Shown here piece by piece: positions 1,295 to 31,038 of a stretch of DNA of 38,205 bases. The notes under the pieces were generated by a model. That model worked only from the letters and a program-made list of their open reading frames with translations, ran no database searches and was not told where the DNA came from. A program made the translations under genes and the position numbers. Each line of letters starts with the position of its first letter. Position 1 is the stretch's first letter. Source of the stretch: Acetobacteraceae bacterium (GTDB lineage: Bacteria; Pseudomonadota; Alphaproteobacteria; Acetobacterales; Acetobacteraceae); the NCBI GenBank assembly GCA_020848935.1, contig JADLHF010000187.1:1-38205 (forward strand), given 5' to 3'.

Positions 1295-1343
1295 CGCGGG
1301 ATCAGGGGATAGCGCGGGATCAGGAGATTGCGCGGGATCAGGC
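1290..1343. repeat. Three tandem 18-bp units across the convergent gene ends
   Basis: Three units of GATAGCGCGGGATCAGGG type lie head to tail at 1290-1307, 1308-1325 and 1326-1343. The second differs from the first in one base and the third in three. The panE-like gene stops inside unit 1 (TAG at 1292-1294) and the oppositely oriented MFS gene stops inside unit 3 (TGA at 1338-1340), so the array fills the whole intergenic gap. Confidence 0.9.
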
Positions 1344-2534: not shown

Positions 2535-2657
2535 CACTGGCAGTGTCTCCCGGCGGCCGCAAATCGACCTCGCCGGGCACCTAACGCGGAAGCGGCGCCG
2601 ACACAACCGCCAGCGCCGCCGGGCACCGCTGCGCCGGCGGGGATCGGCACCGGCGCC

Positions 2658-3995: not shown

Positions 3996-4080
3996 GGTCA
4001 TGTTCCCCGTTCGTTCAGGATGGAGAGTGCCGTGGGCGGGCGCGGCGGTCAAGAACGAATAGTGAACTGATGGTTCCGCG

Positions 4081-4743: not shown

Positions 4744-5311
4744 GGATACCGTGTTCGTCTTCACCCGCACGCCGCGCCTGGGCACGTCGAAACGGCGGCT
4801 GGCGCGCGATATCGGGGCGCGGGCGGCGCTGCGCTTCCACCTGGCCACGCTGCACCGCCTGGTGCGCGCGCTGGCCCGCGACCGGCGGTTCCGCACCGTG
4901 CTGGCGGTGACGCCGGATGGCGGCCATATCGCCGGGCTGCCCGGCATCCCCCGCGTGGGGCAGGGCGGCGGCGACCTGGGCGCGCGCATGGCCCGGGTGC
5001 TGGGCCGGGCGCGCCGCGGCCGGGCGGTGATCATCGGCAGCGACATCCCCGCCGCCGGGGCCGCCGACCTGCGCGCGGCGTTTCGCGCCCTCGGCCGGGC
5101 CGATGCGGTGTTCGGGCCGGCGGAGGATGGCGGCTACTGGCTGGTGGGGTTCGGGCCGCGGCGGGCGGCGCGGCCGTTCGACGGGGTGCGATGGTCGGGC
5201 CCGCATGCCCTGGCGGACACGCTGGCCAACATGGCGGGGCGCCGGGTGGCGCTGCTGCGGCGGTTGCGCGATGTGGATGGCGCCGGTGATTTGGTGCGGG
5301 TTGAGAAGTAA
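4736..5311 (+). CDS. TIGR04282/DUF2064 glycosyltransferase-like protein
   Basis: A 191-residue protein of the DUF2064/TIGR04282 family, which has a nucleotidyltransferase or GT-A-like fold. Visible marks are the VFTRTPRLGTSKRRLA N-terminus, IIGSDIPAA in the middle and VFGPAEDGGYWLVGF, a family-typical motif. Its ATG lies in ATGGCTAG, overlapping the stop of the TIGR04283 gene by eight bases, with no clear Shine-Dalgarno of its own. The two genes are commonly found as a pair, so they probably act in the same pathway. The biochemical role is not established. Its stop codon abuts an open AT-rich repeat at 5312-5443. Confidence 0.82.
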   Translation: MARDTVFVFTRTPRLGTSKRRLARDIGARAALRFHLATLHRLVRALARDRRFRTVLAVTPDGGHIAGLPGIPRVGQGGGDLGARMARVLGRARRGRAVIIGSDIPAAGAADLRAAFRALGRADAVFGPAEDGGYWLVGFGPRRAARPFDGVRWSGPHALADTLANMAGRRVALLRRLRDVDGAGDLVRVEK

Positions 5312-5443
5312 GAAAGACTTCTTTTTGTGAACAAAAAGAAGCAAAAAAACTTCATTCGTTGTTCATCGGGGGGTGCGAGCGTGCCGCCACACTCCAAGGA
5401 ATGAAAGTTTTTTGGTTCTTTTTTTCAAAAAAGAACGCCTTGC
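5312..5443. repeat. AT-rich modular repeat, open form (A'-spacer-B), locus 2
   Basis: A type A hairpin in reverse orientation (5318-5341) is followed by CAAAAAAACTTCATT (5342-5356). A GC-rich spacer of about 43 bases comes next, then AATGAAAGTTTTTTGG (5400-5415) and a type B hairpin (5415-5436), ending in GCCTTGC. The inward arms can pair around the spacer, giving A-tract, stem, loop, stem, T-tract, as in a bidirectional terminator. It begins at the base after one stop codon and ends 7 bases from the convergent moaB stop. Confidence 0.9.
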
Positions 5444-5450
5444 TTGCCTT

Positions 5451-5996
<546 letters not shown>

Positions 5997-6025
5997 GGCG
6001 ATGCTCCTTGGCGCTGGGCCGGCAC

Positions 6026-7894
6026 TCAGTGCAGCGTTTGCACCACGCGCGCGTTGCCATGGTAGCGCGGCCAGATGCCGGCGGCCAGTTCGTCCAGCGA
6101 CGGTGCCGGCAGGCGCAGCCGGGCGGCGTAGAGCCAGGTATGGGCCAGCACGCGCGGCACGAAGGCACGGGTCTCGTCGATCGGAATCGCCTCGATGAAC
6201 AGCAGCGGGTCGCCGTGGTCGTGCACCGCGGCACTCCAGCGCGCCATGGCGGTGGGGCCGGAATTGTAGCTGGCCAGCAGGCGGATCTTGTCACCCGCCA
6301 CCACCTCGGTCCCGGCCAGGAAGGCGAGGTAGCGCTGGCCGAGGCTGAGGTTCACCGCGGGGTCGTGCAGCGGCGGCAGGCCGGGGGAGTCGTCGTCCAT
6401 GCCGGCCAGGAAGCGCGCGGTGGCGGGCATGATCTGCATCAGCCCGCGCGCGCCGGCCGGGGAGACCACGGTGGGGTCGAAGTTCGATTCGGTGCGCGCG
6501 ATGGCATAGACCAGCGCGGGATCGACGGTGAAGCCGCCGGCCGGGCGCAGCCGCGGCACGGTGAAGCGGGTGCGCTCGCGGGTGCGGCCGTCGGCCATCT
6601 CGGCGATGTCGGCGAGCTGGGCGGCCAGCCCGTCCATCCCGGCCGCCTCGGCCACCAGCATCAGCGCGCGGCCCAGGCCGGGGGCGTGGCGCGCGGCGGG
6701 CCATAGCAGGCGCAATTCGGCCTCGGCGCGGTCGCGCTGGCCGATCTGCAGCAAGGCGAAGGCGCGCAGCCCGCCGGGATGGGCTGCCACCGCCTCCAGA
6801 TCGGCCTCGCCCAGGGTTTCGCGCGGTTGCCGGTCGTCTTCCGGCTCCATGCGCAGCAGGCGCCGGGCGATCAGGCCGTGGAAGGTGCGCGCCTCGTCGG
6901 CGGCGCGCAGCAGCCAGCGCGTCTCGGCCGCGGCATCGCCGAGGCGCTGATGCGCGCGCGCGGCCCAGAATGCCGCGCCGGCGCGCTGGGTGGAACTGGC
7001 GATGTCGGCGTTCCAGGCCAGTTCGAACATGGCGGCGGCCTGGGCGATGCGCCCGCTGCGCCATGCCGCCAGCCCGGCCCAGTAGCCGGCGCCGACCACG
7101 GTGACGCAGCTGTCGTCGCGCGCCCGCAGGCAGGATTCGGCGCCGATCGCCGCCACCTCGTAGGCTTCGCGGTCGCGGTTCAGGGCGAACAGGATCTGGC
7201 CGGCCTCGCCGCGCAGCTTGGCGGCATAGCCGGGGGGCAACCCTTTTGCCGCCAGGATGACGCGCGAGGCCGCGCCGTAGGTGCCGCTGCGGGCGGCGGC
7301 GCTCACCTGGCGGTCGATCTCCGGCAGGCGGGCCAGGGTGCGGCCGGGCGGCTCGCTTTCCTCCGGCACCGGCACCGGCTCGGCGGCCGGGGTCAGCGCC
7401 GCCAGCGCCGATGCCGCCAGGGCCGGGGCGGCGGTGCCGGCGGGCAGGCGGCGCTTCAGCAGGGCATGGATCGCCGCGGCGTCCGGCAGATCGGGCCAGC
7501 GCGCCAGCCAGTCCTGCAGATCGGCCGCCGCGGTGCGGGTATGGGGGCCAAGGTGGCGATCGGCCAGCAGGTGGCCGAGCACGCCTTCCACCACGGCATC
7601 GGCGCCGTCCAGCGCCAGCGACTGGCGCACCGCGGCCGCGATGTCGCCGCGGGCCTGGAGCTGGAACAGCCGCCGCAGCCGTGCGGCCTCGCTCGGGGCC
7701 AGCGGCTGCGGCAGCGCGGCGCTGCCGCCGCCGGCGCGCGGCGCCACGCGCGGGACCGCGAAGGCGGATTCCTCGGTGGATTCGTGGATTTGTCCAAACG
7801 CCTTCGGAGCCGCCATGGCGACCAACACCACCGCCCCGAAAACCAGGGCCCGCGCGGCGGGAAGGCGGGAGATCGTGTGACCGGCCCCTCGCAT
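6026..7894 (-). CDS. Periplasmic lytic transglycosylase (Slt-type)
   Basis: A protein of about 622 residues that cleaves peptidoglycan glycan strands to 1,6-anhydro-muropeptides. The N-terminus (LPAARALVFGAVVLVAMAAPKAFG) is a signal peptide. A long helical, TPR-like region follows, as in the superhelical domain of Slt. The catalytic SLT domain lies near the C-terminus, with IARTESNFDP carrying the catalytic glutamate (about E469) and AGARGLMQIMPATA after it, then LASYNSGP. The ATG at 7894 is chosen (GGCAGG just upstream); a GTG at 7918 would add eight residues and cannot be excluded. The gene lies between udg and moaB on the same strand. Confidence 0.9.
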   Translation of the reverse strand: MRGAGHTISRLPAARALVFGAVVLVAMAAPKAFGQIHESTEESAFAVPRVAPRAGGGSAALPQPLAPSEAARLRRLFQLQARGDIAAAVRQSLALDGADAVVEGVLGHLLADRHLGPHTRTAAADLQDWLARWPDLPDAAAIHALLKRRLPAGTAAPALAASALAALTPAAEPVPVPEESEPPGRTLARLPEIDRQVSAAARSGTYGAASRVILAAKGLPPGYAAKLRGEAGQILFALNRDREAYEVAAIGAESCLRARDDSCVTVVGAGYWAGLAAWRSGRIAQAAAMFELAWNADIASSTQRAGAAFWAARAHQRLGDAAAETRWLLRAADEARTFHGLIARRLLRMEPEDDRQPRETLGEADLEAVAAHPGGLRAFALLQIGQRDRAEAELRLLWPAARHAPGLGRALMLVAEAAGMDGLAAQLADIAEMADGRTRERTRFTVPRLRPAGGFTVDPALVYAIARTESNFDPTVVSPAGARGLMQIMPATARFLAGMDDDSPGLPPLHDPAVNLSLGQRYLAFLAGTEVVAGDKIRLLASYNSGPTAMARWSAAVHDHGDPLLFIEAIPIDETRAFVPRVLAHTWLYAARLRLPAPSLDELAAGIWPRYHGNARVVQTLH

Positions 7895-8016
7895 GACCCT
7901 GCCCGTAGCGTGCGCCACCGACCGCGTCGACTCCCACGAATGGGACGCTGCCCGGCTTTTGAAACGCCGCGAGGTGAATCAGCCGCTTGCCGGGCGGGGC
8001 TGCGGTGCGATTTTGC

Positions 8017-8820
8017 CTATCCGGCGTCGATGCTGCGGCGCAGCGCGCGCAGATCGGCCCAGGCATCGCGCTTGGAGCCGGGGCTGCGCAGCAGGTAGGC
8101 GGGGTGCAGCATCGGCAGGGTTGGGATGGCCGTCTCCAGCCCCGGCACCTGCACCCGGGTCCATTTGCCGCGGATGCGGGTGATCCCCGCGCTGTTGCCG
8201 GTCAGCGCGCGGGCGGCCGGCCCACCCAGCAGCACCAGGTGGCGCGGGCGCACCAGGGCGATCTGGCGATGCAGGAACGGCAGGCAGACCTGGGTCTCGG
8301 CTTCGGTGGGGGTGCGGTTGCCGGGCGGGCGCCAGAACACCGTGTTGGTGACCAGGCAGCGCGTGCGGTCGATGCCGATGCTGGCCAGCATCCGGTCCAG
8401 CAACTGGCCGGCGGCGCCGATGAAGGGCCGGCCGGCGCGGTCCTCCTCGGCGCCAGGGGCTTCGCCGACCAGCATCAGGTCGGACTCCGGGTTGCCGTCG
8501 TTGAACACCAGGTTGGTGGCGGTGGCGGCGAGCGGGCAGCCGTCGAAGGCGGCCAGGGCGGCGCGCAGCGCATCCAGCGTGGCGCAGGCGGCAGCGATCT
8601 CCTGTGCCCGGCGGACCTGGGCGGGGCCGGCCGGCGGGCGGGCGGGGCGCGGGGCAGGCAAGGAAGGGGAAGCGGGGGGCGGGGGAACGACCGGCGGGGC
8701 GGCGGGCGGCTGGCGCGCCGGCCGCGCATCGGGAGCGGCCAGGCGGTCCAGCGGCAGGTCGGCCAGCGCCTCGTCGGCGCCCCATTCGATTTGCAGGCGC
8801 AGGGCCTCAAGCGCGTCCAT
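8017..8820 (-). CDS. Uracil-DNA glycosylase, family 4-like, with incomplete Fe-S ligands
   Basis: A 267-residue DNA repair enzyme that removes uracil from DNA. It carries the family 4 motif GEAPGAEED (E120), [28 protein letters not shown] and the second active-site motif LHPAYLLR. Canonical family 4 enzymes hold a 4Fe-4S cluster with four cysteines. Here two of the four positions keep Cys (C95 and C179), but the first of the CxxC pair is Phe92 and the cysteine of KCRPPGNR is Trp163. The same pattern is, from memory, common in alphaproteobacteria. A proline-rich linker (residues 38-66) joins an N-terminal helix to the catalytic domain. The ATG at 8820 is chosen because upstream sequence is not conserved-looking. 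It is divergent from ETF-QO. Confidence 0.88.
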
Positions 8821-8965
8821 CGCACCAGCATAGCGGGGTGTGCGCGCGGCGGCGAGGTTTTGCGCATTGGCGCGTCTGTCCGTAACCTGCGCCGGGCCCA
8901 TCTATGTGGGTGGCACGAGAATGCGGTGGCGGGCAGGCGCTGCCCCGCCGGACCAAGGAGGATGC

Positions 8966-10603
8966 ATGTCAGACGCTCCCGCGCGCGAGCAGATGGAATT
9001 CGACGTCGTGATCGTCGGCGCCGGTCCGGCCGGGCTGGCCGCCGCGATCCGGCTCAAGCAGCTCGCCCCCGAGACCGCGGTCTGCGTGGTGGAGAAGGGC
9101 AGCGAGGTGGGCGCCCATATCCTCTCCGGTGCGATCATCGAGCCGCGGGCGCTGGCCGAGCTGATCCCGGACTGGCAGGAACGCGGCGCGCCGCTGGACA
9201 CGCCGGCCAAGATGGACAAGTTCCTCTACCTGACCGCGGTCGCCGACATCCGCCTGCCGACGCCGCCGACCATGCACAACGCGGGCAACTACATCTCCTC
9301 GCTGGGCAATGTCTGCCGCTGGCTGGCCGAGCAGGCCGAGGCGCTGGGGGTGGAGATCTACCCCGGCTTCGCCGCCGCCGAGGTGCTGGAGGAGGAGGGG
9401 CGCATCGTCGGCATCGCCACCGGCGACATGGGCATCACGCGGGACGGCACGCGCGGACCGAACTACGCGCCGGGCATGGAGCTGCGCGCGCGCTACACGA
9501 TCCTGGCCGAGGGCTGCCGGGGATCGCTGACCAAGAAGCTGTTGGTGCGCTTCAACCTGAACGAGGGGCGCAACCCGCAGACCTTCGGGATCGGCATCAA
9601 GGAGCTGTGGGAAATCCCGGCCGAGAACCACCAGCCCGGCCTGGTGATCCACACCATCGGCTGGCCGATGGATTCCGCGACGTATGGCGGCTCGTTCCTG
9701 TACCACTGGGGCAAGAACCTGGTGTCGTACGGCTACGTGGTGGGGCTGGATTATTCCAACCCGTACCTGTCGCCGTTCGAGGAGACGCAGCGGCTGAAGA
9801 ACCACCCCTCGCTGCGGCCGCATTTCGAGGGCGGGCGGCGCATCGCCTATGGCGCGCGGGCGATCAGCGAGGGCGGCATCCAGTCGCTGCCGAAGCTGAC
9901 CTTTCCCGGCGGCTGCCTGATCGGCGACACGGCGGGCTTCCTCAACGTGCCGAAGATCAAAGGCACGCATACGGCCATGAAATCCGGCATGCTGGCCGCC
10001 GAGGCGGTGGCGGAATGCCTGGCCGACGACGCCAACCCGGCCGAGCCGGTGCAGTACGAGGAGAAATTCCGCGAAAGCTGGCTGCATGACGAGCTGAGGA
10101 GCGTGCGCAACATCCGCCCGGCCTTTGCCAAATGGGGGCTGTATGGCGGGCTGGTGGCCTCGGCGCTGGATGCCTACGTGTTCCGCGGCCGTGCGCCGTG
10201 GACCCTGCGCCACCCGCACGCGGACCACACCACCCTGAAGCCGGCGGCGATGTGCCAGCCGATCGCCTATCCCAAGCCGGACGGCAAGGTGACGTTCGAC
10301 CGCAACTCCTCGGTGTTCATCAGCAACACCAACCACGAGGAGGACCAGCCGATCCACCTGCGGCTGCGTGACCCGGCAAAGGCGATCGCGGTGAACTGGG
10401 AGAAGTACCGCAGCCCGGAAACCCGCTACTGCCCGGCCGGGGTTTACGAGATTGTCGGCGAGGAGGAGGGCGCGCCGCGGTTGCAGATCAACGCGCAGAA
10501 CTGCGTGCACTGCAAAACCTGCGACATCAAGGACCCCACCCAGAACATCGACTGGGTGACGCCGGAGGGTGGCGGGGGACCGGCCTATCCCGGGGGAATG
10601 TAG
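8966..10603 (+). CDS. Electron transfer flavoprotein-ubiquinone oxidoreductase
   Basis: A 545-residue membrane-associated flavoprotein that passes electrons from reduced ETF, produced by fatty acid and amino acid dehydrogenases, to ubiquinone. The FAD-binding motif [15 protein letters not shown] is at the N-terminus. The C-terminal 4Fe-4S domain is intact, with CPAGVYE and NCVHCKTCDIKDPTQNIDW supplying the four cysteines. Length is that of the family. AAGGAGG lies five bases before the ATG at 8966. No etfAB genes are present in the window. It is divergent from udg across 145 bases, and a flavin monooxygenase follows on the same strand after 80 bases. Confidence 0.95.
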   Translation: MSDAPAREQMEFDVVIVGAGPAGLAAAIRLKQLAPETAVCVVEKGSEVGAHILSGAIIEPRALAELIPDWQERGAPLDTPAKMDKFLYLTAVADIRLPTPPTMHNAGNYISSLGNVCRWLAEQAEALGVEIYPGFAAAEVLEEEGRIVGIATGDMGITRDGTRGPNYAPGMELRARYTILAEGCRGSLTKKLLVRFNLNEGRNPQTFGIGIKELWEIPAENHQPGLVIHTIGWPMDSATYGGSFLYHWGKNLVSYGYVVGLDYSNPYLSPFEETQRLKNHPSLRPHFEGGRRIAYGARAISEGGIQSLPKLTFPGGCLIGDTAGFLNVPKIKGTHTAMKSGMLAAEAVAECLADDANPAEPVQYEEKFRESWLHDELRSVRNIRPAFAKWGLYGGLVASALDAYVFRGRAPWTLRHPHADHTTLKPAAMCQPIAYPKPDGKVTFDRNSSVFISNTNHEEDQPIHLRLRDPAKAIAVNWEKYRSPETRYCPAGVYEIVGEEEGAPRLQINAQNCVHCKTCDIKDPTQNIDWVTPEGGGGPAYPGGM

Positions 10604-10683
10604 GCTCGCCTGCGTTTGGCGTATTGTAACGCTCGAACTTGGATCCCGCACCGGGGCCAGCCAGACAGCGAGGACCGGACACG

Positions 10684-12189
10684 ATGAACGATACCGCCAC
10701 ACTCGCCCATCGCCCCGCCGCCCAGGGGGTGGAGCATTTCGACGTGCTGATCGTCGGCGCCGGCATCTCCGGCATCGGCGGGGCCTATCACCTGATCCAT
10801 CAGTCGCCCGGCACCAGCTTCGTGATCCTGGAGGCGCAGGAGACCTTCGGCGGCACCTGGTGGACCCACAAATACCCCGGCATCCGCAGCGACAGCGACC
10901 TCTACACCTTCGGCTACCGCTTCAAGCCGTGGACCGGCAAGCCGATCGCCACCGCCGAGGAAATCCGCGCCTATATGGGCGAGGTGATCGCCGAGAACGA
11001 CCTGGACCGCCACATCCGCTACGGCCACACGATCTCCGCGGCGTCGTGGTCCAGCGCGGAGAAACGCTGGACGGTGGAGGCGACCCGCACCGCCACCGGC
11101 GAGGCGCGGCGCTTCACCTGCAATTTCCTCTACATGTGCCAGGGCTACTACCGGCATTCCGAGGGCTACACGCCGCAATGGCCGGGGATGGAGAACTTCA
11201 AGGGCCCGATCATCCACCCGATGAAGTGGCCGGAAGACCTCGACTACACCGGCAAGAAGGTGGTGGTGATCGGCTCCGGCGCCACCGCGGCCACGCTGAT
11301 CCCGGCGATGGCCGACAAGGCCGGCCACATCACCATGCTGCAGCGCTCGCCGACCTATTTCCGCACCGGGCGCAACGCCATCGAACTGGCCGACGAGCTG
11401 CGCAAGCTGCAGGTGGACGAGAGCTGGATCCACGAGATCGTGCGCCGCAAGATCAACTACGAGAGCCAGGTGTTCACCAACCGCTCGTTCAGCGAGCCGG
11501 AAAAGGTGCGCGAAGAGCTGCTGGGGCTGGTGCGCGCGGCGCTGCCGGCGGACTACGACGTGGAGAAGCATTTCACGCCGAGCTACCGGCCGTGGCGCCA
11601 GCGCATTGCCTTCGTGCCCGATGCCGACCTGTTCCAGGGCATCTCCAGCGGCAAGGCCAGCGTGGTAACCGACGAGATCGAGCACTTCACCCAGGGCGGC
11701 ATCGCGCTGAAATCCGGCGAGATGCTGGAGGCGGACATCATCATCACCGCCACCGGCTTCCACATGAGCGTGATGGGCGACATCGCCTTCACCGTGGACG
11801 GCGCGCCGGTGGACTGGGCCGAGACGGTGACCTATCGCGGCATGATGTTCACCGGGGTGCCGAACCTGGCCTGGGTGTTCGGCTATTTCCGCGCCAGCTG
11901 GACCCTGCGCGCCGACCTGGTGGCCGATTTCGTCTGCCGCCTGCTTGGCCACATGAAGGCCATCGGCGCACAGCAGGTGGATATCGGTCTGCGCGACGAG
12001 GACGGCGACATGAAGATCCTGCCGTGGATCGACGAGGAGAACTTCAACCCGAACTACCTGCTGCGCTCGATGCATCTGCTGCCGAAGCGCGGCGAGAAGA
12101 AGGACTGGGCGCACACCCAGGACTACTGGGCGGAAAAGGACGAAATTCCGCAAATCGACCTGACCGACAAGGCATTTCGATACAGCTGA
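10684..12189 (+). CDS. Baeyer-Villiger-type flavin-containing monooxygenase
   Basis: A 501-residue FAD- and NADPH-dependent monooxygenase. The first Rossmann motif is VLIVGAGISGIGGAYHL and the second is VVVIGSGATAATL. Between them FKGPIIHPMKWP fits the Baeyer-Villiger fingerprint FxGxxxHxxxW(P/D) exactly, so it probably inserts oxygen next to a ketone, or oxidises a heteroatom. The substrate is not evident. GGTWWTHKYPGIRSDSD is also typical of the family. A GAGGA sequence about ten bases upstream supports the ATG at 10684. The gene ends eight bases before a closed AT-rich repeat, and the next gene begins after it. Confidence 0.9.
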   Translation: MNDTATLAHRPAAQGVEHFDVLIVGAGISGIGGAYHLIHQSPGTSFVILEAQETFGGTWWTHKYPGIRSDSDLYTFGYRFKPWTGKPIATAEEIRAYMGEVIAENDLDRHIRYGHTISAASWSSAEKRWTVEATRTATGEARRFTCNFLYMCQGYYRHSEGYTPQWPGMENFKGPIIHPMKWPEDLDYTGKKVVVIGSGATAATLIPAMADKAGHITMLQRSPTYFRTGRNAIELADELRKLQVDESWIHEIVRRKINYESQVFTNRSFSEPEKVREELLGLVRAALPADYDVEKHFTPSYRPWRQRIAFVPDADLFQGISSGKASVVTDEIEHFTQGGIALKSGEMLEADIIITATGFHMSVMGDIAFTVDGAPVDWAETVTYRGMMFTGVPNLAWVFGYFRASWTLRADLVADFVCRLLGHMKAIGAQQVDIGLRDEDGDMKILPWIDEENFNPNYLLRSMHLLPKRGEKKDWAHTQDYWAEKDEIPQIDLTDKAFRYS

Positions 12190-12196
12190 GAACACG

Positions 12197-12272
12197 AATG
12201 AAAGTTTTTGCTTCTTTTTTCAAAAAGAAGCGCTTGTTCTTTTTTGAAAAAAAGAACCAAAAAACTTTCATT
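12197..12272. repeat. AT-rich modular repeat, closed form (A-B), locus 3 (best copy)
   Basis: Perfect outer arms AATGAAAGTTTTT (12197-12209) and AAAAACTTTCATT (12260-12272) enclose two adjacent hairpins, type A at 12210-12231 and type B at 12236-12257, joined by four bases. Both strands contain a stop-free frame starting at the ATG in the arm (MKVF...). It lies between the monooxygenase stop and the DUF4139 gene. Confidence 0.93.
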
Positions 12273-12311
12273 CATTGGCTGCGGTGCCCAAGCGGAGGGA
12301 AGGGGGGTGCG

Positions 12312-14303
12312 ATGCGTGCAGTTTGGTTGATCGCGGCGGTGATGCTGGCGTCGCCGGCTTTGGCGCAAAGCGGCGAGCCTTCGCTGCGGCGGGTGATGCT
12401 GTCCTCCGGCGGCGTGGCCTATGTCGAGTATGCCGCCGAGGTGGCAGGCGATGCCACGCTGCGCCTGGCCGTGCCGCTGGCGCAGGTGGACGACGTGCTG
12501 AAGTCGCTGGTGGTGTTCGACAGCCGCGGCGGGGTTGGCGGCGCCACCCTGCCGGGGCTGGACGGCACGCAGGCGGCCTTCGGCGACGTGCCGTTCGGGC
12601 CGGAGGCATTGGGCGATCCGCTCGCCTACCTGAACGCGCTGCGCGGGGTGGCGATGGAGGTGCGCGGGCCGCGGCCGATGCAGGGCGTGCTGCTGCGCGC
12701 CGAGCGGGTGCCGGAACTGGCGCTGCGCGACGGCGCCGTGGAGCGCACGCGCGTCAGCCTGCTGACCGATGAGGGGCTGCGCCAGTTCGTGCTGGAGGAT
12801 GTCGAGGCGGTGCAGGTGGCCGACCCCGTGCTGCGCGCGCGCATCGCCGCCGCGCTGGCGGCGCTGAAGCGCGACGCGGCGCAATCCACGCGGCTGTTCA
12901 CCCTGCGCGCACCGGGGACAGGCAGCCGCACGGTGCGGGTGGGCTACGTGGTCGGCGCGCCGCTGTGGAAGGTCAGCTACCGCCTGGTGCTGCCGGGCCA
13001 GGACGGCGACAAGGCGCGGCTGCAGGGCTGGGCGGTGCTGGAGAACACCACCGGGGCGGATTGGAAGGATGTCGCGGTAGCGCTGCAATACGGCAACCCC
13101 GTCACCTTCCGCCAGGCGCTGTACCGCAGCTATTTCGTGCAGCGGCCGGAAGTGCCGGTGGAGGTGCTGGGCCGCATCCTGCCCGGCGTCGATACCCGTG
13201 CCTTCGCCGATGCCGCCAAGGCCGCGCCGCCACCGCCGCCGATGGCCCCGGCCTCGCGGGCGATGGGCGGGCTGGCCCTGGCCGAAAGGGCGCAGGCGCC
13301 GGCGCCGGTGATGGCCGCCCCGGCCGAAACCGCGGCGGCCACCGAGGGGGCGCAGGAGACGGTGTTCGAACTGCCCTCGCCGGTGACCCTGATGGCCGGC
13401 CACAGCGCCACCATGCCGATCCTGGACCGTGCCGCCACCGCAAGGCGCATCGGCCTGGTGCAGCAGGGCCGCCGCCACCCGCTGGCCGCGATACGTCTGA
13501 CCAACGACACGCCAACCAGCCTGCCGGCCGGGGTGCTGACGCTGTACGACCCCACCTCGCCAGCCATGTTCGCCGGTGACGCCCGGCTCGGCGGCCTGCC
13601 CTCCGGCGAAAGCCGGCTGCTGTCCTTCGCCGAGGATTTGCGCACCGACATCGCCTGGCGCCAGGAGGAGGCCACCAGCCTGGCCGCCGTCAGCGCCAGC
13701 CAGGGCGTGCTGCGCATCGACGAGCGGCTGCGCTGGACCACCCAGGCAACGCTGACCGCACCGGCCGGCGAGGCGCGCGACCTGCTGGTGGAGATCGCCA
13801 AGCGCGCGCAATCCACGCTGGTGCCCGACCCCGCGCTGGCGCCGGCCGAGGAAACCGCCACCGCCTGGCGCTTCGCCGTGACGCTGAAGCCCGGCGAGAA
13901 CCGCACGCTGGTGGTGCGGCAAGACCGCATCCAGCGCCAGTCCGTGGCGCTGATGACCGGCGAACAGGCGGTGCTGCGACTGATGGGGATGCAGGGGCTG
14001 GACCCCGCCGCCCGCGCCGCCCTGCAACGCCTGGTGGACCTGCGTGCCGCCCTGTCCGCCAAGTCCGCCGAGGTCACCCGGCTGCAGGCCCAGGGCGAGG
14101 AGGTGGAGCGCGACCAGGCGCGCACCCGCAGCAATCTCGGCGCGGTGCCCAGCGGCGACGCGCTGCACACCCGCCTGCTGCGCCAGCTGGAAGCCCAGGA
14201 AACCCGCATCGAGGCGCTGCGCCGCAGCCAGGAACAGGCCCGCGCCGCGGTGCAACAGGCACAGCGCGAGCTTGAGGCGGCGGTCGCGAAGTTCTCGCTG
14301 TGA
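12312..14303 (+). CDS. Secreted DUF4139 domain protein
   Basis: A 663-residue protein with a clear signal peptide (MRAVWLIAAVMLASPALAQ), so it is exported to the periplasm or beyond. The body resembles the DUF4139 family: an N-terminal beta-rich part, then a region with WKVSYRLVLPG and LENTTGADWKDVAVAL typical of that domain. A proline/alanine-rich linker follows (about residues 300-355). The last 100 or so residues are a predicted coiled coil rich in Arg, Gln, Glu and Leu. The function of the family is unknown. AAGGGGGG precedes the ATG by about five bases. Only 20 bases separate it from soxB, so it may be transcribed with the sarcosine oxidase operon, but no functional tie is known. Confidence 0.8.
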   Translation: MRAVWLIAAVMLASPALAQSGEPSLRRVMLSSGGVAYVEYAAEVAGDATLRLAVPLAQVDDVLKSLVVFDSRGGVGGATLPGLDGTQAAFGDVPFGPEALGDPLAYLNALRGVAMEVRGPRPMQGVLLRAERVPELALRDGAVERTRVSLLTDEGLRQFVLEDVEAVQVADPVLRARIAAALAALKRDAAQSTRLFTLRAPGTGSRTVRVGYVVGAPLWKVSYRLVLPGQDGDKARLQGWAVLENTTGADWKDVAVALQYGNPVTFRQALYRSYFVQRPEVPVEVLGRILPGVDTRAFADAAKAAPPPPPMAPASRAMGGLALAERAQAPAPVMAAPAETAAATEGAQETVFELPSPVTLMAGHSATMPILDRAATARRIGLVQQGRRHPLAAIRLTNDTPTSLPAGVLTLYDPTSPAMFAGDARLGGLPSGESRLLSFAEDLRTDIAWRQEEATSLAAVSASQGVLRIDERLRWTTQATLTAPAGEARDLLVEIAKRAQSTLVPDPALAPAEETATAWRFAVTLKPGENRTLVVRQDRIQRQSVALMTGEQAVLRLMGMQGLDPAARAALQRLVDLRAALSAKSAEVTRLQAQGEEVERDQARTRSNLGAVPSGDALHTRLLRQLEAQETRIEALRRSQEQARAAVQQAQRELEAAVAKFSL

Positions 14304-14323
14304 TGCAGCACCGGGCTGGCTGA

Positions 14324-15574
14324 ATGCGCTTCTCCCTGCTGTCCCTGCTGCGCGAATCCCTGCGCGGCCATCGCGGCTGGCCGGCGCAGTGGCGCGATGC
14401 CAGCCCGAAGCCGGCCTATGACGTGGTGATCGTGGGTGCCGGCGGCCACGGGCTGGCGACGGCCTACTACCTCGCCGCCGAATGCGGCCTGCGCAACATC
14501 GCCGTGGTGGAGAAGGGCTGGCTGGGCGGCGGCAATACCGCGCGCAACACCACCGTCATTCGCTCCAACTACCTGTGGGAGGAGTCGGAGGCGATCTACG
14601 AGCACAGCATGAAGCTGTGGCAGGATTTGTCGCACGCGCTGAACTACAACGTGATGTATTCGCCGCGCGGCGTGATGATGCTGGCGCACACTGTCCATGA
14701 CATGCAGGTGATCCGCCGCCACGTGCATGCCAACCGGCTGGCCGGCATCGACAACGAGCTCCTCTCGCCGCGCGAAGCCCAGGCATTCTGCCCGATCCTG
14801 AACATCGGCCGTGACATCCGCTACCCCGTGCTCGGCGCCGCACTGCAACGCCGCGGCGGCACCGCGCGCCACGACGCCGTCGCCTGGGGCTATGCCCGCG
14901 CGGCCTCGGCGCTGGGCGTGGACATCATCCAGAATTGTCCGGTCACCGGCCTGCGCCGCCAGCAGGACGGCGCGATCGCCGGCGTGGAGACCGCGCGCGG
15001 CTTCATCGCAGCCCCGAAGATCGGCGTGGTCGCCGCCGGCCACAGCTCGGTGCTGATGGCAATGGCCGGTGTGCGCATGCCGCTGGAAAGCTTTCCGCTC
15101 CAGGCCCTGGTCAGCGAGCCGGTCAAGTCGGTGATGCCCTGCGTGGTGATGTCCAACACCATCCACGCCTACATGTCGCAATCCGACAAGGGCGAACTGG
15201 TGATCGGCGCGGGGACCGACGCCTACCCCTCCTATTCCCAGGCCGGCGGGCTGCACATCGCCAGCGACACGCTGGAGGCGGTGTGCGAACTGTTCCCTAC
15301 CCTGCGCCGGCTGCGCATGATGCGGTCCTGGGGCGGCATCGTGGACGTGACGCCGGACCGCTCGCCGATCATCGGCCGCACCCCGGTGCCCGGCCTGTTC
15401 GTCAATTGCGGCTGGGGCACCGGCGGGTTCAAGGCCACCCCCGGCTCCGGCCACGTCTTCGCCCACACCATCGCCAAGGGCGAACCCCACCCGATCGCGG
15501 CGCCGTTCACGCTGGACCGCTTCCGCACCGGCAGGCTGATCGACGAGGCGGCGGCGGCGGCGGTGGCACATTGA
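14324..15574 (+). CDS. soxB: Sarcosine oxidase beta subunit
   Basis: A 416-residue subunit of heterotetrameric sarcosine oxidase, the one that carries the sarcosine-oxidising FAD and covalent FMN. The FAD motif is DVVIVGAGGHGLATAYYLA, followed by EKGWLGGGNTARNTT. The histidine of GGTARHDAVAWGY (H183) matches the covalent flavin attachment site. The C-terminal GWGTGGFKATPGSG is typical of the family. The complex demethylates sarcosine to glycine, giving H2O2 and, with tetrahydrofolate, methylene-THF. The gene is first in the soxB-D-A-G order, but an AT-rich repeat at 15583-15710 separates it from soxD. Confidence 0.95.
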   Translation: MRFSLLSLLRESLRGHRGWPAQWRDASPKPAYDVVIVGAGGHGLATAYYLAAECGLRNIAVVEKGWLGGGNTARNTTVIRSNYLWEESEAIYEHSMKLWQDLSHALNYNVMYSPRGVMMLAHTVHDMQVIRRHVHANRLAGIDNELLSPREAQAFCPILNIGRDIRYPVLGAALQRRGGTARHDAVAWGYARAASALGVDIIQNCPVTGLRRQQDGAIAGVETARGFIAAPKIGVVAAGHSSVLMAMAGVRMPLESFPLQALVSEPVKSVMPCVVMSNTIHAYMSQSDKGELVIGAGTDAYPSYSQAGGLHIASDTLEAVCELFPTLRRLRMMRSWGGIVDVTPDRSPIIGRTPVPGLFVNCGWGTGGFKATPGSGHVFAHTIAKGEPHPIAAPFTLDRFRTGRLIDEAAAAAVAH

Positions 15575-15582
15575 TGACAAGC

Positions 15583-15710
15583 AAGAAAGGAAGCACTTCT
15601 TTTTCTGTAGAAAAAGAAGCAAAAAGACTTTCATTCACTTCTCATCGTCGCACCGCACGTCTTACGGATGAAAGTTTTTTGGTTCTTTTTTTCAAAAAAG
15701 AACGCCTTCC
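15583..15710. repeat. AT-rich modular repeat, open form (A'-spacer-B), locus 4, inside the sox operon
   Basis: A reversed type A hairpin (15596-15619) is followed by CAAAAAGACTTTCATT (15620-15635). A spacer of about 31 bases, unrelated to that of locus 2, leads to GATGAAAGTTTTTTGG and a type B hairpin (15682-15703), ending in GCCTTCC. It starts nine bases after the soxB stop and ends 12 bases before the soxD ATG. It could attenuate transcription between the two genes. Confidence 0.9.
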
Positions 15711-15722
15711 CTTGGCTTCCCC

Positions 15723-15995
15723 ATGCTCCTGATCCCCTGCCCCTTCTGCGCCATGGACCGCCCGGAAGCGGAGTTCCGGCACGCCGGCGAGGCCCATCTC
15801 ACCCGCCCGCCGGACCCGGCAGCGGCGGACGACGCCGCCTGGGCTGATTTCCTCTACCACCGCGCCAACCCTCGCGGCGTGATCGCCGAACGCTGGCGCC
15901 ATGTTCATGGCTGCGGGCGGTTCATCAACGTGCTGCGCGACACGGTCAGCGACCGCATCCTGGCCAGCTACCGCCCCGGCGAGAAGCGGCCATGA
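15723..15995 (+). CDS. soxD: Sarcosine oxidase delta subunit
   Basis: A 90-residue small subunit of heterotetrameric sarcosine oxidase that binds zinc in characterised enzymes. The N-terminal CPFC and the C-terminal WRHVHGCGRFINVLRDTVSD with its His and Cys residues match SoxD. The start is set by homology (MLLIPCPFC), because no other in-frame start lies nearby. The 18 bases upstream are pyrimidine-rich and show no Shine-Dalgarno, which is odd for the first gene after a hairpin-rich repeat. Its TGA overlaps the soxA ATG in ATGA at 15992-15995, so soxD and soxA are translationally coupled. Confidence 0.93.
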   Translation: MLLIPCPFCAMDRPEAEFRHAGEAHLTRPPDPAAADDAAWADFLYHRANPRGVIAERWRHVHGCGRFINVLRDTVSDRILASYRPGEKRP

Positions 15996-18900
15996 TCGGT
16001 TCGCCGCGCCACGAGGGCATGATGCAGCGGCTGCTGGTGGGCCGGATGTTCCAGGGCCGGCTGTTGCCCGAAAGCATGCGCACCGCGGATGGCGGGCGGG
16101 TGGAGCGGCGGACCGACATCCGCTTCAGCTTCGACGGCGCCGACTATCTCGGCTGCGGCGGGGACACGCTGGCCTCCGCCCTGCTGGCCAATGGTGTGCA
16201 TTTGGTCGGCAGGTCGATGAAATACCACCGGCCACGCGGCATCGTCGCGGCCGGCGCCGAGGAGCCGAATGCGCTGGTCGCCGTGGTGCGCGGTGGCGGG
16301 CGCACCACCCCGAACCTGCGCGCCACCCAGGTGGAGCTGTTCGAGGGGCTGGAGGCACACAGCCAGAACCGCTGGCCCTCGCTGAACACCGATCTCGGCG
16401 CCCTGGTGGCGCTGGCGGCCCCGCTGCTGCCGGCGGGGTTCTACTACAAGACCATGATGGGGCCGCGCGGGCTCGGCCTGTGGCATCGCGTGTTCGAGCC
16501 GCTGGTGCGTCGCGCCGCCGGGCTGGGCCGCGCGCCCAGGGTGGCGGATCCCGACCGTTACGCCCGGTATTACGCGCATTGCGACGTGCTGGTGGCCGGC
16601 GCCGGCCCGGCCGGCATCGCGGCCGCGCTGGCCGCCGGGCGCGGCGGCGCGCGCACGATCCTGTGCGACGAACAGGCCGAACCCGGCGGCGCCCTGCTGA
16701 GCGAGATCGCGGCATTGATCGACGGCATCCCGGCGCGCGAGTGGCTGGCGCAGAGCCTGGCCGAATTGGCGGCGATGCCCCATGTGCGGGTGATGCCGCG
16801 CACCACCGCCTTCGGCTGCTACCCGCACAACATGGTCGGCCTGGCCGAACGGGTCACCGACCACCTGGCCGCGCCAAGCCCGGACCAGCCGCGCGAGCGC
16901 CTGTGGCGGGTGCGGGCGCGCCGCATCGTGCTGGCGACGGGGGCCATCGAACGGCCGCTGGTGTTCCCCGGCAACGACCGGCCGGGCGTGATGCTGGCCG
17001 GGGCGGCACGGGAGTACCTGCTGCGCTGGGGGGTGAAGGTCGGCAGCCGGGTGGTGATCGCCACCGCCTGCGACACCGCCTATCGCGCCGCGCTGGACCT
17101 GGCCACGGCCGGGGTGGCGGTGAAGCTGGTGGTCGATCTGCGCGCCGCCGCCGACGGTCCGCTGCCCCAGGCGGCCCGCGCGGCGGGGATCGCGGTGCTG
17201 GCCGGCGGGCGCGTTCTGGGCACCCATTTGCGCGGCAAGCGGCTGGACTCCGTGCTGCTGGGCCGCGGCGACGACGGCCGCCGCCGCTGGTTCGACTGCG
17301 ACGCGCTGCTGATGTGCAACGGCTGGACCCCCGCGGTGCACCTGCACGCCCAGGCGCGCGGCGCGCTGCGCTGGGAGGGGGAGCGCGGCGTGTTCCTGCC
17401 CGGCGAGCCGGCTCCGGGCGTGGAAAGCATTGGCGCCTGCAACGGTGCCACCGACCTGGCGATGGCGCTGGCCCAGGGTGCGGCATCCGGCGGCGGCGCC
17501 GTGCCGGTGGTCGAGGGCGAGGTGCCGGCGCTGCCCGGCCCCGCCCATGTCGATGCCGCGGTGGCCGGCGACGCCTTCGTCGATTTCCAGAACGACGTGC
17601 GCGCCGACGACGTGCGCCAGGCCGTGGCCGAGGGCTTCCACGCCATCGAGCATGTCAAGCGCTACACCGCCGGCGGGCTGGGCACCGACCAGGGCAAGAC
17701 CGGCAACATGAACCTGCTGGCGCTGGCCGCCGCCGCCCGCGGCACGCCGATCCCCGAGCTGGGCACCACCACCTTCCGCCCGCCCTACACCCCGGTCAGC
17801 TTCGGCACCCTGGCCGGCCCGGCGCGCGGCGAGATGTTCGACCCCGTGCGCACCACGCCGCTGCACGCCCAGGCGGTGGCCGAGGGCGCGGTGTTCGAGG
17901 ATGTGGGGCAATGGAAACGTGCCCGGTATTTCCCGCAGGCCGGCGAGGACATGCACGCCGCCGTGCGCCGTGAGGTCGCCACCACCCGTGCGGCCGCCGG
18001 CCTGTTCGACGCCTCGACCCTGGGCAAGATCGAAGTGGTCGGCCCGGACGCCGCCATCTTCCTGGACCGCCTCTACCTCAACGCCATCGCCACGCTGAAG
18101 CCCGGCCGCTGCCGCTACGGCGTGATGCTGTCCGAGGCGGGGTTCGTGATGGATGACGGCGTGATGGCCCGCCTGGCGCCCGACCGCTTCCACGTCACCA
18201 CCACCACCAGCGGGGCGGCGCATGTGCTGGCCCATATGGAGGATTACCGCCAGACCGAATGGCCGGAGCTGCGCGTCTGGCTGACCTCCACCACCGAGCA
18301 CTGGGCGGTGCTGGCGGTGCAGGGTCCGCGCGCGCGCGACGTGCTGGCCCCGCTGGTGGCCGGCGACATCTCGGCGGCCGCCCTGCCCCACATGGCGGTG
18401 CGCGACCTGAAGGTGGCCGGCATTCCCGCCCGGATGATGCGGGTCAGCTTCTCCGGCGAGCAGGGCTTCGAGGTCAACGCGCCCGCCCGCCATGCCCCGG
18501 CGCTGTGGGATGCGCTGCGCCCGCGCATCGCCGCCGCCGGCGGCACCGTCTATGGTACCGAGGCGATGCACGTGCTGCGCGCCGAGAAGGGCTACATCAT
18601 CGTCGGCCAGGAAACCGACGGCACGGTCACCCCCGGCGACCTCGGCATGGCGATCGGTCGCGGCAAGGGCGATTTCATCGGCCGCCGCTCGCTGGCCCGG
18701 CCCGACATGCTGGCCGCCGATCGCCGCCAACTGGTCGGGCTGTTGAGCGACGACCCGGCGCTGGTGCTGGAGGAAGGCGCGCAGATCGTCGCCCAATCCG
18801 CGCCGCCACCGGGCACGAAGGCGCTGGGGCATGTCACCTCGTCCTACTTCAGCCCGGCGCTCGGGCGCTCGATCGCGCTCGCCCTGCTGGCCGGCGGGCG

Positions 18901-19009
18901 CGAACGCACCGGCGAGCGCCTGTTCGTACCCCTCGCGCGCGGCAGCATCGGCGTCGCGGTGGCCGCGCCGGTCTTCCTCGATCCCCAAGGCGGGCGCCTG
19001 CATGTTTGA
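15992..19009 (+). CDS. soxA: Sarcosine oxidase alpha subunit
   Basis: A 1005-residue large subunit. In order it has a ferredoxin-like N-terminal domain without an iron-sulfur cluster (GCGGDTLASALLANGVHLVGRSMKYHRPRG region, about residues 54-83), a dinucleotide-binding Rossmann fold (VLVAGAGPAGIAAALAAG, about 199-216), a second nucleotide-binding part, and a GcvT-like tetrahydrofolate-binding aminomethyltransferase domain over the last 370 residues. The complex oxidises sarcosine, and this domain moves the one-carbon unit to THF. The ATG overlapping the soxD stop is used; the first 30 or so residues look variable and a start at an internal Met is possible. It overlaps soxG by eight bases. Confidence 0.95.
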   Translation: MIGSPRHEGMMQRLLVGRMFQGRLLPESMRTADGGRVERRTDIRFSFDGADYLGCGGDTLASALLANGVHLVGRSMKYHRPRGIVAAGAEEPNALVAVVRGGGRTTPNLRATQVELFEGLEAHSQNRWPSLNTDLGALVALAAPLLPAGFYYKTMMGPRGLGLWHRVFEPLVRRAAGLGRAPRVADPDRYARYYAHCDVLVAGAGPAGIAAALAAGRGGARTILCDEQAEPGGALLSEIAALIDGIPAREWLAQSLAELAAMPHVRVMPRTTAFGCYPHNMVGLAERVTDHLAAPSPDQPRERLWRVRARRIVLATGAIERPLVFPGNDRPGVMLAGAAREYLLRWGVKVGSRVVIATACDTAYRAALDLATAGVAVKLVVDLRAAADGPLPQAARAAGIAVLAGGRVLGTHLRGKRLDSVLLGRGDDGRRRWFDCDALLMCNGWTPAVHLHAQARGALRWEGERGVFLPGEPAPGVESIGACNGATDLAMALAQGAASGGGAVPVVEGEVPALPGPAHVDAAVAGDAFVDFQNDVRADDVRQAVAEGFHAIEHVKRYTAGGLGTDQGKTGNMNLLALAAAARGTPIPELGTTTFRPPYTPVSFGTLAGPARGEMFDPVRTTPLHAQAVAEGAVFEDVGQWKRARYFPQAGEDMHAAVRREVATTRAAAGLFDASTLGKIEVVGPDAAIFLDRLYLNAIATLKPGRCRYGVMLSEAGFVMDDGVMARLAPDRFHVTTTTSGAAHVLAHMEDYRQTEWPELRVWLTSTTEHWAVLAVQGPRARDVLAPLVAGDISAAALPHMAVRDLKVAGIPARMMRVSFSGEQGFEVNAPARHAPALWDALRPRIAAAGGTVYGTEAMHVLRAEKGYIIVGQETDGTVTPGDLGMAIGRGKGDFIGRRSLARPDMLAADRRQLVGLLSDDPALVLEEGAQIVAQSAPPPGTKALGHVTSSYFSPALGRSIALALLAGGRERTGERLFVPLARGSIGVAVAAPVFLDPQGGRLHV

Positions 19010-19490
19010 GATTGCCGAGGCCCCGCCCGCCACCCGCCTCATGCTGCGCGGCGCGCCCGAGGTCGCCGCCCGCGCCGGTGCCGCCTTCGGCGTGGTGCCG
19101 CCGCTGGAGCCCTGCCGCGCCAACCAGGCCGGCGAACGTGCAGCCTTGTGGCTCGGCCCCGACGAGTGGCTGCTGCTGGCCCCGTCCGACGCCGACGCGA
19201 CCAAGCTCGCCGCGGCGCTGGAGGGCCTTGTGCACAGCCTGGTCGATGTGTCCGACGGCACCGAGGCCCTGCTGCTGCACGGCGCCGGGGCCGCGCTGGC
19301 GCTGTCGGCTGGCTGCCCGCTGGATCTGCACCCCGACGCCTTTCCGCCCGGCATGGCCACCCGCACCGTGCTGGGCCGCATCGGCATCACGCTGTGGCGG
19401 CGCGGGGCGGCGGACTGGTGGGTGGAGGTGGCACGCTCCCAGGCCGCCTATGCCCGCGCCTTTCTGGCCGAGGCGGGGCGGGGGTGGTAG
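19002..19490 (+). CDS. soxG: Sarcosine oxidase gamma subunit
   Basis: A 162-residue protein in the position of soxG, with the family features WLGPDEWLLLAP, VDVSDGTEALLLHGAGA and a conserved C-terminal ADWWVEVARSQAAY. The gamma subunit is a small, weakly conserved part of the heterotetramer related to the GcvT/YgfZ fold. The ATG at 19002 lies inside the end of soxA, overlapping it by eight bases, so translation is probably coupled. The stop codon is three bases from an open AT-rich repeat that fills the gap to the convergent gene at 19627. Confidence 0.9.
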   Translation: MFEIAEAPPATRLMLRGAPEVAARAGAAFGVVPPLEPCRANQAGERAALWLGPDEWLLLAPSDADATKLAAALEGLVHSLVDVSDGTEALLLHGAGAALALSAGCPLDLHPDAFPPGMATRTVLGRIGITLWRRGAADWWVEVARSQAAYARAFLAEAGRGW

Positions 19491-19493
19491 GGT

Positions 19494-19626
19494 AGGAAGC
19501 AGTTCTTTTTTGAAAAAAAGAACCAAAAAACTTCAATAATTTCCATACTCTGGCACCAATGCCGTCACCATTTGAAATGGAGTGAAGTCTTTTTGCTTCT
19601 TTTTCTTCAGAAAAAGAAGGCCTTCC
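19494..19626. repeat. AT-rich modular repeat, open form (B'-spacer-A), locus 5
   Basis: A reversed type B hairpin (19502-19523) is followed by CAAAAAACTTCA. A spacer of about 46 bases holds its own small palindrome (CCATTT/AAATGG, 19568-19580). Then come GTGAAGTCTTTTTG and a type A hairpin (19596-19619), ending in GCCTTCC directly against the stop of the convergent gene. The module order is the reverse of loci 2 and 4. Confidence 0.9.
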
Positions 19627-19947
19627 TTAAATCCCTGCCTTCATCTTCGCAAACACCTGCCGATCCCGATTATCACGCATCAGCGCCGCGAAGCCGATGA
19701 TCGTCTCCAGCCCCAACCCCAGCGGCATGCCGCTCTCCTCCTCGGCGACCAGCTTGCCATAGGGCTGCCCGGTCATCTTCTCCCACTTCCCCGCCGGCTT
19801 CTTCACTTCCAGGTGCACCACGGTGGCCTTCATCACCAGGCGCACGATCGCCTCCTTCGGCGCGGATGGCTTGGTCAGGCTGGGGCAGCCGGCGATCATC
19901 TGCCAGCCATTGGTCAGCGCCCAGGTGGTGAGTTCTTCGCGGTCCAT
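19627..19947 (-). CDS. Conserved-looking hypothetical protein
   Basis: A 106-residue protein not recognised as a named family. It starts MDREELTTWALTNGWQMI, has a central beta-rich stretch (AIVRLVMKATVVHLEVKK) and ends with a helical region (MPLGLGLETIIGFAALMRDN). It has no signal peptide or membrane span. Three upstream Met codons are possible, but GGGGAG six bases before the ATG at 19947 decides that start. It stands alone, converging on the sox operon and divergent from gltB. Codon use is like its neighbours, which suggests a native gene. Confidence 0.7.
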   Translation of the reverse strand: MDREELTTWALTNGWQMIAGCPSLTKPSAPKEAIVRLVMKATVVHLEVKKPAGKWEKMTGQPYGKLVAEEESGMPLGLGLETIIGFAALMRDNRDRQVFAKMKAGI

Positions 19948-20161
19948 ACCCATCTCCCCCGCCCCCATCGGCGCACGACGCAAACGCAGAGCAGGCGCCG
20001 TCACGGGCGAAATTGCAACAGGGCAGCCATGGCCCTAGTGTGCGGTGCAGCAAGCCAGAACAAGCACCCGTGCCGACGACAATCCGTGTCGTGCCGGGGG
20101 AGCATTGCTGGCGATGGAGTGGTATCCCGCCGCACCGCGCGGCGGGTAGGGAGCATCTGCG

Positions 20162-30947: not shown

Positions 30948-31038
30948 AGAAAGCAGTTCCTTTTTGAAAAAAGAACCAAATAACTTTCGATCAGAAGTCT
31001 TCTTGCTTCTTTTTCTTCAGAAGAAGAAGCCCCTCCTT
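30948..31038. repeat. AT-rich modular repeat, open form (B'-A) with short spacer, locus 6
   Basis: A reversed type B hairpin (30955-30976) and a type A hairpin (31006-31029) are joined by shortened arms, ACTT and AAGT, around only a few bases. This is the most diverged and shortest open copy. It starts at the base after the ABC exporter stop and ends two bases before the convergent Rieske gene stop. Confidence 0.88.

Follow-up and report, generated by a model that had tools for sequence, protein, structure and literature searches.

The intergenic DNA at positions 12197-12272 of this contig carries two AT-rich hairpins in opposite orientation, and the question it raises is what kind of unit such a pair represents. 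The window, by which we mean the whole stretch of 38,205 nucleotides that was analysed, is an entire contig (C187) of an Acetobacteraceae draft genome (4.60 Mb in 301 contigs, 95% complete, 70% G+C). It had been claimed from the letters alone that six loci in the window each hold one hairpin closed by CTTC/GAAG (A) and one closed by GTTC/GAAC (B), inverted to each other. The sequence confirms this arrangement at all six. The arm that precedes each hairpin is also beyond chance: six matches with at most one mismatch were found in the window, compared to none in 100 shuffles. Rfam gave no match at gathering score within the window. We refer to an arm and its hairpin as a module. The A modules fall into three sub-flavours, each with its own arm and loop, namely A1 (loop CTTCAG, arm GAAGTCTTTTTG), A2 (loop GTTCAC, arm GAAGTTTTTTTG) and A3 (loop TC, arm GAAAGTTTTTG).

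Two layouts occur among the window elements, none of which has a strand assigned to it as a whole. In the arms-outward layout, seen near position 76 and at 12197, the hairpins lie 5 bp apart. The first of these elements spans 74-148, with an A3 hairpin at 88-107 (+), a B hairpin at 113-134 (-) and arms at 74-87 and 135-148; the second spans 12197-12272, with A3 at 12211-12230 (+) and B at 12236-12257 (-), and starts 7 nt past the stop of the gene 10684-12189. The other four loci (5312, 15583, 19494 and 30948) have their hairpins outward and separated by 29-73 bp. The element at 5307-5446 carries A2 at 5318-5341 (-) and B at 5415-5436 (+) and fills the gap between the convergent genes 4751-5311 and 5451-5996. 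At 15584-15712, A1 (15596-15619, -) and B (15682-15703, +) lie between soxB (14324-15574, +), a FAD-dependent oxidoreductase (DAO) that is the first gene of the sox cluster as judged by position and domain, and soxD, the sarcosine oxidase delta subunit gene (15723-15995, +). The element at 19491-19626, with B at 19502-19523 (-) and A1 at 19596-19619 (+), separates the convergent genes soxG (19002-19490) and 19627-19968. The last one, at 30948-31039, has B at 30956-30976 (-) and A1 at 31006-31029 (+).

The pairing was then tabulated over 861 kb of the same genome. This sample consists of the window and 59 further stretches, drawn from 20 that were chosen for hits (L031-L050) and 40 chosen by contig number alone (L051-L090), with L050 dropped as part of the window. 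A custom scan for arm plus hairpin (score of at least 6, modules no more than 250 bp apart grouped into one locus) found 224 modules, and none in the reversed sequence. They form 127 loci, 97 pairs and 30 singles. Every one of the 97 pairs is inverted; 84 have their hairpins outward (gap mode 71-74 bp, range 29-215) and 13 their arms outward (gap -1 to 5 bp), and all 12 pairs that bear an A3 module follow the latter layout. By flavour, 92 pairs are A+B, three are A2+A2, two combine A with a T..A type, and B+B does not occur, while random pairing of modules at the observed 122:100 A to B counts would make about half of the pairs mixed. In the hit-independent subset (the 40 stretches and the window) there are 44 pairs, 41 of them A+B, two A2+A2 and one A1 with a T-type module, and 14 singles. 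A large excess of inverted A+B pairs, named beforehand as what would support the rule, is thus present in this sample. The strictness of the rule did not hold, given the three A2+A2 pairs, the two T-type pairs and the singles at 30 of 127 loci. The A2 modules account for 13 of the 30 singles and for all three A+A pairs; since they break the pair rule in this way, A2 may be a separate sub-family.

Sister species keep the orientation and widen the range of flavours. A sample of 871 kb from eight species, mostly contigs already known to carry copies, contains 155 modules in 67 pairs and 21 singles. Of these pairs 58 are A+B, five C+C, one G+G and three include a T type. Over both samples inversion is found in 164 of 164 pairs, and together with the 97 pairs against 30 singles in the genome itself this supports the inverted pair as the unit. 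In other genera we searched with exact T6/A6 patterns that require inverted pairs, so that flavour is tested while orientation is preset, and the pairs in G207, G158 and G111 were counted by eye among the matches listed, out of 268, 24 and 37 total strand matches, respectively. Among 49 listed inward pairs of G207, with matches on both strands present and two loci with a single match dropped, 42 are mixed, seven A+A and none B+B. The 12 listed in G158 comprise seven A+A and five mixed pairs, and the 14 listed in G111 comprise 12 B+B and two mixed pairs. Outward pairs in other genera, also counted by eye, are mixed in 13 cases, A+A in 12 and never B+B (n=25); identical outward A+A pairs make up 6 of 10 in G028, 3 of 11 in G207 and 3 of 4 in G111. 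In G026, CTTC is paired with GTCC in three of three cases. Hence the strict A+B rule fails outside this lineage, with identical pairs dominating in G111 and G158 and being common in G028. We also considered that A+B might be a functional law, in which unlike closing base pairs immobilise a four-way junction and keep the hairpins apart. This idea initially fitted the mix in G207 and the unequal lengths in three CTTC+CTTC pairs of G028, but G111, G158 and the identical outward A+A pairs disobey it, and it was rejected as a general rule. Because identical pairs are common in related genera, A+B is best explained by descent from a single composite founder in the genus and not by a rule of function. 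Spacers are alike within a genome, as in the shared spacer core visible among the G207 copies, and the flavour mix therefore seems to go back to the founder that was amplified.

The modules are widespread in the family. T6/A6 modules of type A or B were found in 65 of the 249 genomes of the family, in 33 of 102 genera, with a maximum of 1079 matches in G207. Of 60 relatives 15 have the B pattern, and the 24 genomes searched from other families of the class all lack it. A plasmid search gave one matching record, pL11-B of Pseudoroseomonas cervicalis (NZ_CP115853.1), which holds a full A1-B element (L255, 2501-2621) with 77% identity over 79% of the query; the 12197 element gave no plasmid match. 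The pL11-B element lies between convergent NAD(P)-dependent oxidoreductase genes, with its hairpins 4 and 9 nt past the two stops, and its central stem is GC-rich and nearly perfect. A search of 50,697 phage records gave, at the level used, a single match, a Microviridae sp. record from cattle blood that is marked UNVERIFIED (MG945182.1; L256, 601-636), in which one B hairpin with the arm AAAAGTTTTTTG lies between two annotated features. A check of 80 named loci returned no true module and one loosely module-like match of another sequence, and our searches of the open-access literature listed no paper that describes this family.

The arm and the hairpin of a module are tied to each other by a three-strand code. 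In every flavour the arm ends as a pyrimidine run followed by G. We compared this run with the purine strand, the stretch between the TC loop and the lower stem. The two have the same length in 193 of 218 parsed modules of the genome (permuted mean 87.8, maximum 113) and in 129 of 148 parsed sister modules (permuted mean 54.4, maximum 73), where six own and seven sister modules were unparsed and some of the misses are probably CTACAG-type loops that were miscut. The length classes include 5/5, 6/6 and 7/7, with 8/8 in the sisters; in other genera T5/A5, T6/A6 and T7/A7 are found, combined with several lower stems. The match extends to composition. The A1 arm TCTTTTT faces the purine strand AGAAAAA, which is a match in parallel register, and the A1 module of the window at 31006-31029 carries a matched double change in this register (arm TCTTCTT, purine strand AGAAGAA). 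In A2, with arm TTTTTTT and purine strand ACAAAAA, the C is left without a good third-strand partner. Read in parallel, the equal-length modules of the genome contain 64 C:G matches, 22 one-sided misses (T:G, C:A) and 29 T:C positions that belong to A2; for the sisters the counts are 38, 5 and 22. Read antiparallel, there is one C:G match with 148 misses in the genome and none with 81 misses in the sisters. An antiparallel Watson-Crick strand exchange between arm and purine strand, which would fit the length match equally well, fails on this composition. Pairing of the two arms with each other was likewise rejected as the cause of the arm sequence: the A1 arm contains a C while its usual partner B is all T, and the partner arms differ in length (T5/T6, T6/T7).

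Natural stem variants give the best test of this register. For AAGAAA with any pyrimidine arm, the nine genomes of the genus gave 25 matches. All 23 with the compensated stem TTTCTT have the arm TTCTTT, and the two with an uncompensated stem have the arms TTTCTT and TTTTTT. In 19 genomes of other genera, among 150 matches listed and counted by eye (100 of them from G207; this list covers G083 and G207 in part and does not extend to G074), 127, from five genera, have the stem TTTCTT, with 125 TTCTTT arms, one TTCTTC and one TTTTTT. The 23 listed with the uncompensated stem TTTTTT have the arms TTTTTT (18), TTTCTT (2), TTCTTT (1), TTTTCT (1) and TCTTTC (1); uncompensated stem changes thus mostly leave the arm all T, with a matched arm in one of these 23. 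Altogether, six genera contribute 150 listed modules with the stem TTTCTT/AAGAAA, and 148 of them have the arm TTCTTT. The purine strand AAAGAA behaves less clearly. Its three matches in the genus are all uncompensated with the arm TTTTTT, and among the matches listed from 24 genomes the compensated stem appears in 5 of 24, with the arm TTTCTT twice (parallel, G158), TTCTTT once (antiparallel, G111) and TTTTTT twice. Support for a third strand is therefore strong at purine position 3 and in A1 and weak at position 4. The AAGAAA variant may have descended from few events, which would make its counts non-independent.

This strand order is that of a known class of fold-back motifs. We scanned for class IV potential intrastrand triplexes by the rules of Holder et al. 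(Hoogsteen-pyrimidine-purine order, stems of 6-15, here at maximum 12, loops of 1-6, one mismatch allowed from 7 on). Of the 224 modules in the genome 183 pass these rules, as do 141 of the 155 in the sisters, and the modules make up 183 of all 192 class IV motifs in the own sample and 141 of 142 in the sister sample; the reversed controls gave 13 and 4 motifs. We consider it probable that the pairs are dispersed, non-coding, REPIN-like elements made of inverted modules, whose three-strand code fits a class IV triplex and which have a structural role at gene ends. In this reading an element consists of two inverted modules around a spacer, each module being a hairpin with a 5' arm, and the strands of a module follow in the order arm (the Hoogsteen strand), a 5-nt turn (G plus STTC), pyrimidine strand, TC loop and purine strand. 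As read from the sequence code, the three strands could form a triplex, and the pair would move as one unit. It might serve as a structural block at gene ends and between cistrons, be it a barrier to RNA decay, a pause or a partial terminator. Since each strand of an inverted pair reads one module forward, such a block would act on either strand.

The position of the elements relative to genes agrees with a role at gene ends. With codon-based gene calls and gaps of at least 60 nt as reference, 47 own elements lie in convergent, 68 in tandem and five in divergent gaps (seven are at stretch ends), while 71, 221 and 100 such gaps are available (n=392). The sister elements lie in 35 convergent, 46 tandem and three divergent gaps (four at stretch ends), with 64, 215 and 108 available. 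Divergent gaps are thus avoided (5 of 120 own elements against 100 of 392 gaps) and convergent gaps are overrepresented (47 of 120 against 71 of 392). The nearest hairpin edge overlaps the stop codon or falls no more than 20 nt from it at 86 of 162 gene ends in the genome and at 95 of 116 in the sisters. Where an element of the genome lies no further than 25 nt from a stop codon, that codon is TAG or TAA in 68 of 96 cases; among the genes overall 239 of 761 end in this way and 522 in TGA. We asked whether the elements supply these stops, and rejected the idea: tails away from stops show little CTA or TTA, and orthologs with and without an element show no clear difference.

Orthologous junctions show how the elements come and go. 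The element at 15574|15723 parts soxB from soxD within the sarcosine oxidase cluster. The element is absent from G002 and G008, in which soxB and soxD share a single nucleotide; in G005 and G007 they are separated by 70 nt without an element, and in G003 (L178) the junction carries an element oriented oppositely to that at window 15574-15723. The opposite orientations in two species suggest independent arrival, or inversion, at the same junction. At the 12189|12396 junction the place of the element is taken, in five sister sequences, by a GC-rich hairpin with a short terminal T run. At the junction of G008 (L179) orthologous to window 5311-5451, an unrelated GC-rich palindromic repeat replaces the AT-rich element. 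This looks like the exchange of one family of gene-end hairpins for another. Of 54 comparisons of orthologous junctions with an element on at least one side, which share junctions and are not independent, 31 are one-sided and 23 two-sided, 12 of the latter with the same arrangement. The claim that the pair is the unit is supported in that it behaves as a dispersed element, present or absent at orthologous junctions.

Bidirectional intrinsic terminators would resemble the elements in several ways. A stem formed by arm, spacer and arm, followed by the T runs of arm and hairpin, would halt RNA polymerase on either strand; like such terminators, the elements present an A-run, a stem and a U-run in both directions and sit behind stop codons, and their excess in convergent gaps as well as the ordinary terminator-like hairpin in the five sisters at 12189|12396 fit this reading. 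Spacers in the sisters also fold better than shuffles (mean z -2.57, n 62), those of the genome less so (-0.88, n 74), compared to -0.15 and -0.20 for random fragments of the two samples. When five whole elements of the window were folded, four were more stable than shuffles (z -4.07 to -4.95), which supports our structural reading; the element at 30948, no better than shuffles (z -0.83), counts against it. So does ordinary folding, which cannot model triplexes and in most pairs favours a long imperfect hairpin that joins both modules (128 of 164 strand folds of own hairpins-outward elements). Of nine terminator-like sites in window positions 1-20000 four fall on modules, but nine sites are no excess over the 8.9 in shuffles. 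The elements differ from terminators in that they also occur inside operons, have flanking AT hairpins and obey a code that terminators need not have and that termination leaves unexplained. In our genome and in G003 the genes soxB and soxD, which encode subunits of one enzyme, are separated by an element. Moreover, the start of the following gene is no more than 40 nt away in 21 of the 68 tandem pairs of the genome and in 25 of the 46 of the sisters, which leaves little promoter room outside the element. Overall, we regard termination as an unlikely explanation, and we favour a barrier over a strict terminator because of the soxB-soxD junction and because the following start is so often close.

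Alternatively, the elements could act as DNA, as mirror repeats that adopt H-DNA or cruciform structures under supercoiling, or as binding sites of a chromosome protein. Arm and 5' stem form a mirror repeat about a 5-nt centre, a hallmark of H-DNA, so that H-DNA is also possible. There is no strand preference either: the proximal module of tandem inward pairs is A in 37 and B in 48 cases, and single modules in tandem gene pairs run forward in seven and reverse in 16 cases relative to transcription. The lack of orientation of the singles with transcription argues against a purely RNA-level, strand-specific role and keeps a DNA-level role possible. However, the link to stop codons and gene ends fits a role in RNA equally well or better, and we consider an action as DNA doubtful.

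For the REPIN-like reading with a three-strand code, the further question is whether the code is under selection. Identity was taken from 120 random pairs of full-length A1-B elements (of 48 full-length A-B elements in total) and amounts to 93-96% in the modules, 47% in the spacers, 48% in the tails, 33-36% beyond the tails and 31% in shuffled spacers. Modules at about 95% next to spacers at 47% point to modules that are kept, or kept alike, after dispersal. The strands covary in parallel in at least six genera, and from this pattern in the sequences we tentatively conclude that selection may maintain a triple helix, with an intrastrand triplex in RNA or DNA as the selected trait; we hold this to be quite possible. 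The three-strand match might instead reflect shared descent only, where a few mirror-symmetric founder modules were copied without selection. Copies have clearly been amplified within lineages, as the similar spacers in each genome show, and there are few independent variant types. Yet the length match is kept with few exceptions by the founder types T5, T6, T7, A1, A1 with T6 and TTCTTT, and likewise with the lower stems CTTC, GTTC, TTTC, CTCC, TCCC and GTCC, and the difference in identity between modules and spacers also stands against it. Descent as the sole cause is therefore rather improbable in our view.

The original prediction had likened the pairs to REP/BIME elements and proposed to look for a RAYT-like (REP-associated tyrosine) transposase in the genome. 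No such gene turned up in the draft: PF01797 has no match there, while 5 of 14 control genomes match. It has none in the copy-rich genomes G002, G003, G004, G006, G008 and G028 either; six of the nine genomes of the genus lack a match, and presence of the domain does not track module copy number. The drafts already suggest that the Y1/HUH gene is absent from copy-rich species. One weak match each was seen in G001, G005 and G007, with no module in the 4.5-7 kb around these Y1 genes (L182-L184). The Y1 gene of G001 adjoins a GTAG-tagged GC-rich palindrome of the classic REP type, GTAGCCCGCATC...GATGCGGGC (L182, 2771-2827), and a similar GTAG-tagged palindrome follows one Y1 gene of G027 (L185, 3706-3753). 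Where we looked, the RAYT-like genes thus have a different repeat. A single module does lie 93 nt before this Y1 gene of G027, on one side only and 20 nt past the stop of the preceding gene; a second stretch of G027 (L186) has none, and no RAYT gene flanked by two inverted modules of the family was met around the Y1 genes of G001, G005, G007 and G027. A GTAG on either strand within 14 nt of the hairpin, always on the 3' side, accompanies only 20 of the 224 modules in the genome and 8 of the 155 in the sisters, where the reversed tag as control gives 11 and 22; in the genome this is above control but under a tenth of the modules. A CGTC tag was found near six own and two sister hairpins (control 21 and 4), and a published survey reports CGTC repeats as missing from Acetobacteraceae (PMC3733652). 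By eye, the target-site duplication that a MITE of a DDE transposase would leave was not clearly visible at the empty sites soxB/soxD (G002, G008) and L045/L242, nor was an autonomous relative with the same ends or a route of copying found in the stretches read. Although inverted pairs of two related palindromes with preferred spacing and mostly intergenic location are REPIN-like (PMC3116915), we consider it very unlikely that the pairs are REP/BIME elements mobilised by a RAYT.

The likeness to REPINs is nevertheless a structural one. The REPINs, or REP doublets, of Pseudomonas fluorescens SBW25 (PMC3116915) share with our elements an inverted pair of short palindromes, a less conserved spacer, intergenic spread, the pair as the unit and a preferred spacing; an inverted pair with a less conserved spacer, dispersed as a unit, is what we find here. 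The elements differ in that a RAYT was not found in the genome and a regular GTAG-type tag is missing, that their hairpins are AT-rich in a 70% GC genome, that the arm is tied to the hairpin by the three-strand code, and that they lie close behind stop codons. The second relative is the group of intrastrand triplex motifs, the PIT/BoxC/TM-ECO and ITxF classes (Holder et al. 2015, PMC4666352). That paper reports that such motifs are abundant and can fold in vitro and that no promoter or terminator activity was detected for the E. coli type. They share with the modules the tripartite fold-back order, the high copy number and the class IV rules. TM-ECO, as described there, is GC-rich and of the purine motif, whereas our modules are of an AT-rich pyrimidine motif, occur mostly as inverted pairs and have variants that keep the third strand matched. 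A word search of the main text of PMC4666352 found no mention of acetic acid bacteria.

For these bacteria, the hundreds of copies in a genome, among them natural variants changed in one, two or three strands, provide a ready test set for the three-strand code. The placement at gene ends makes an effect on expression measurable. As for how the elements disperse, the family would exemplify REPIN-like spread in which no RAYT is detectable.
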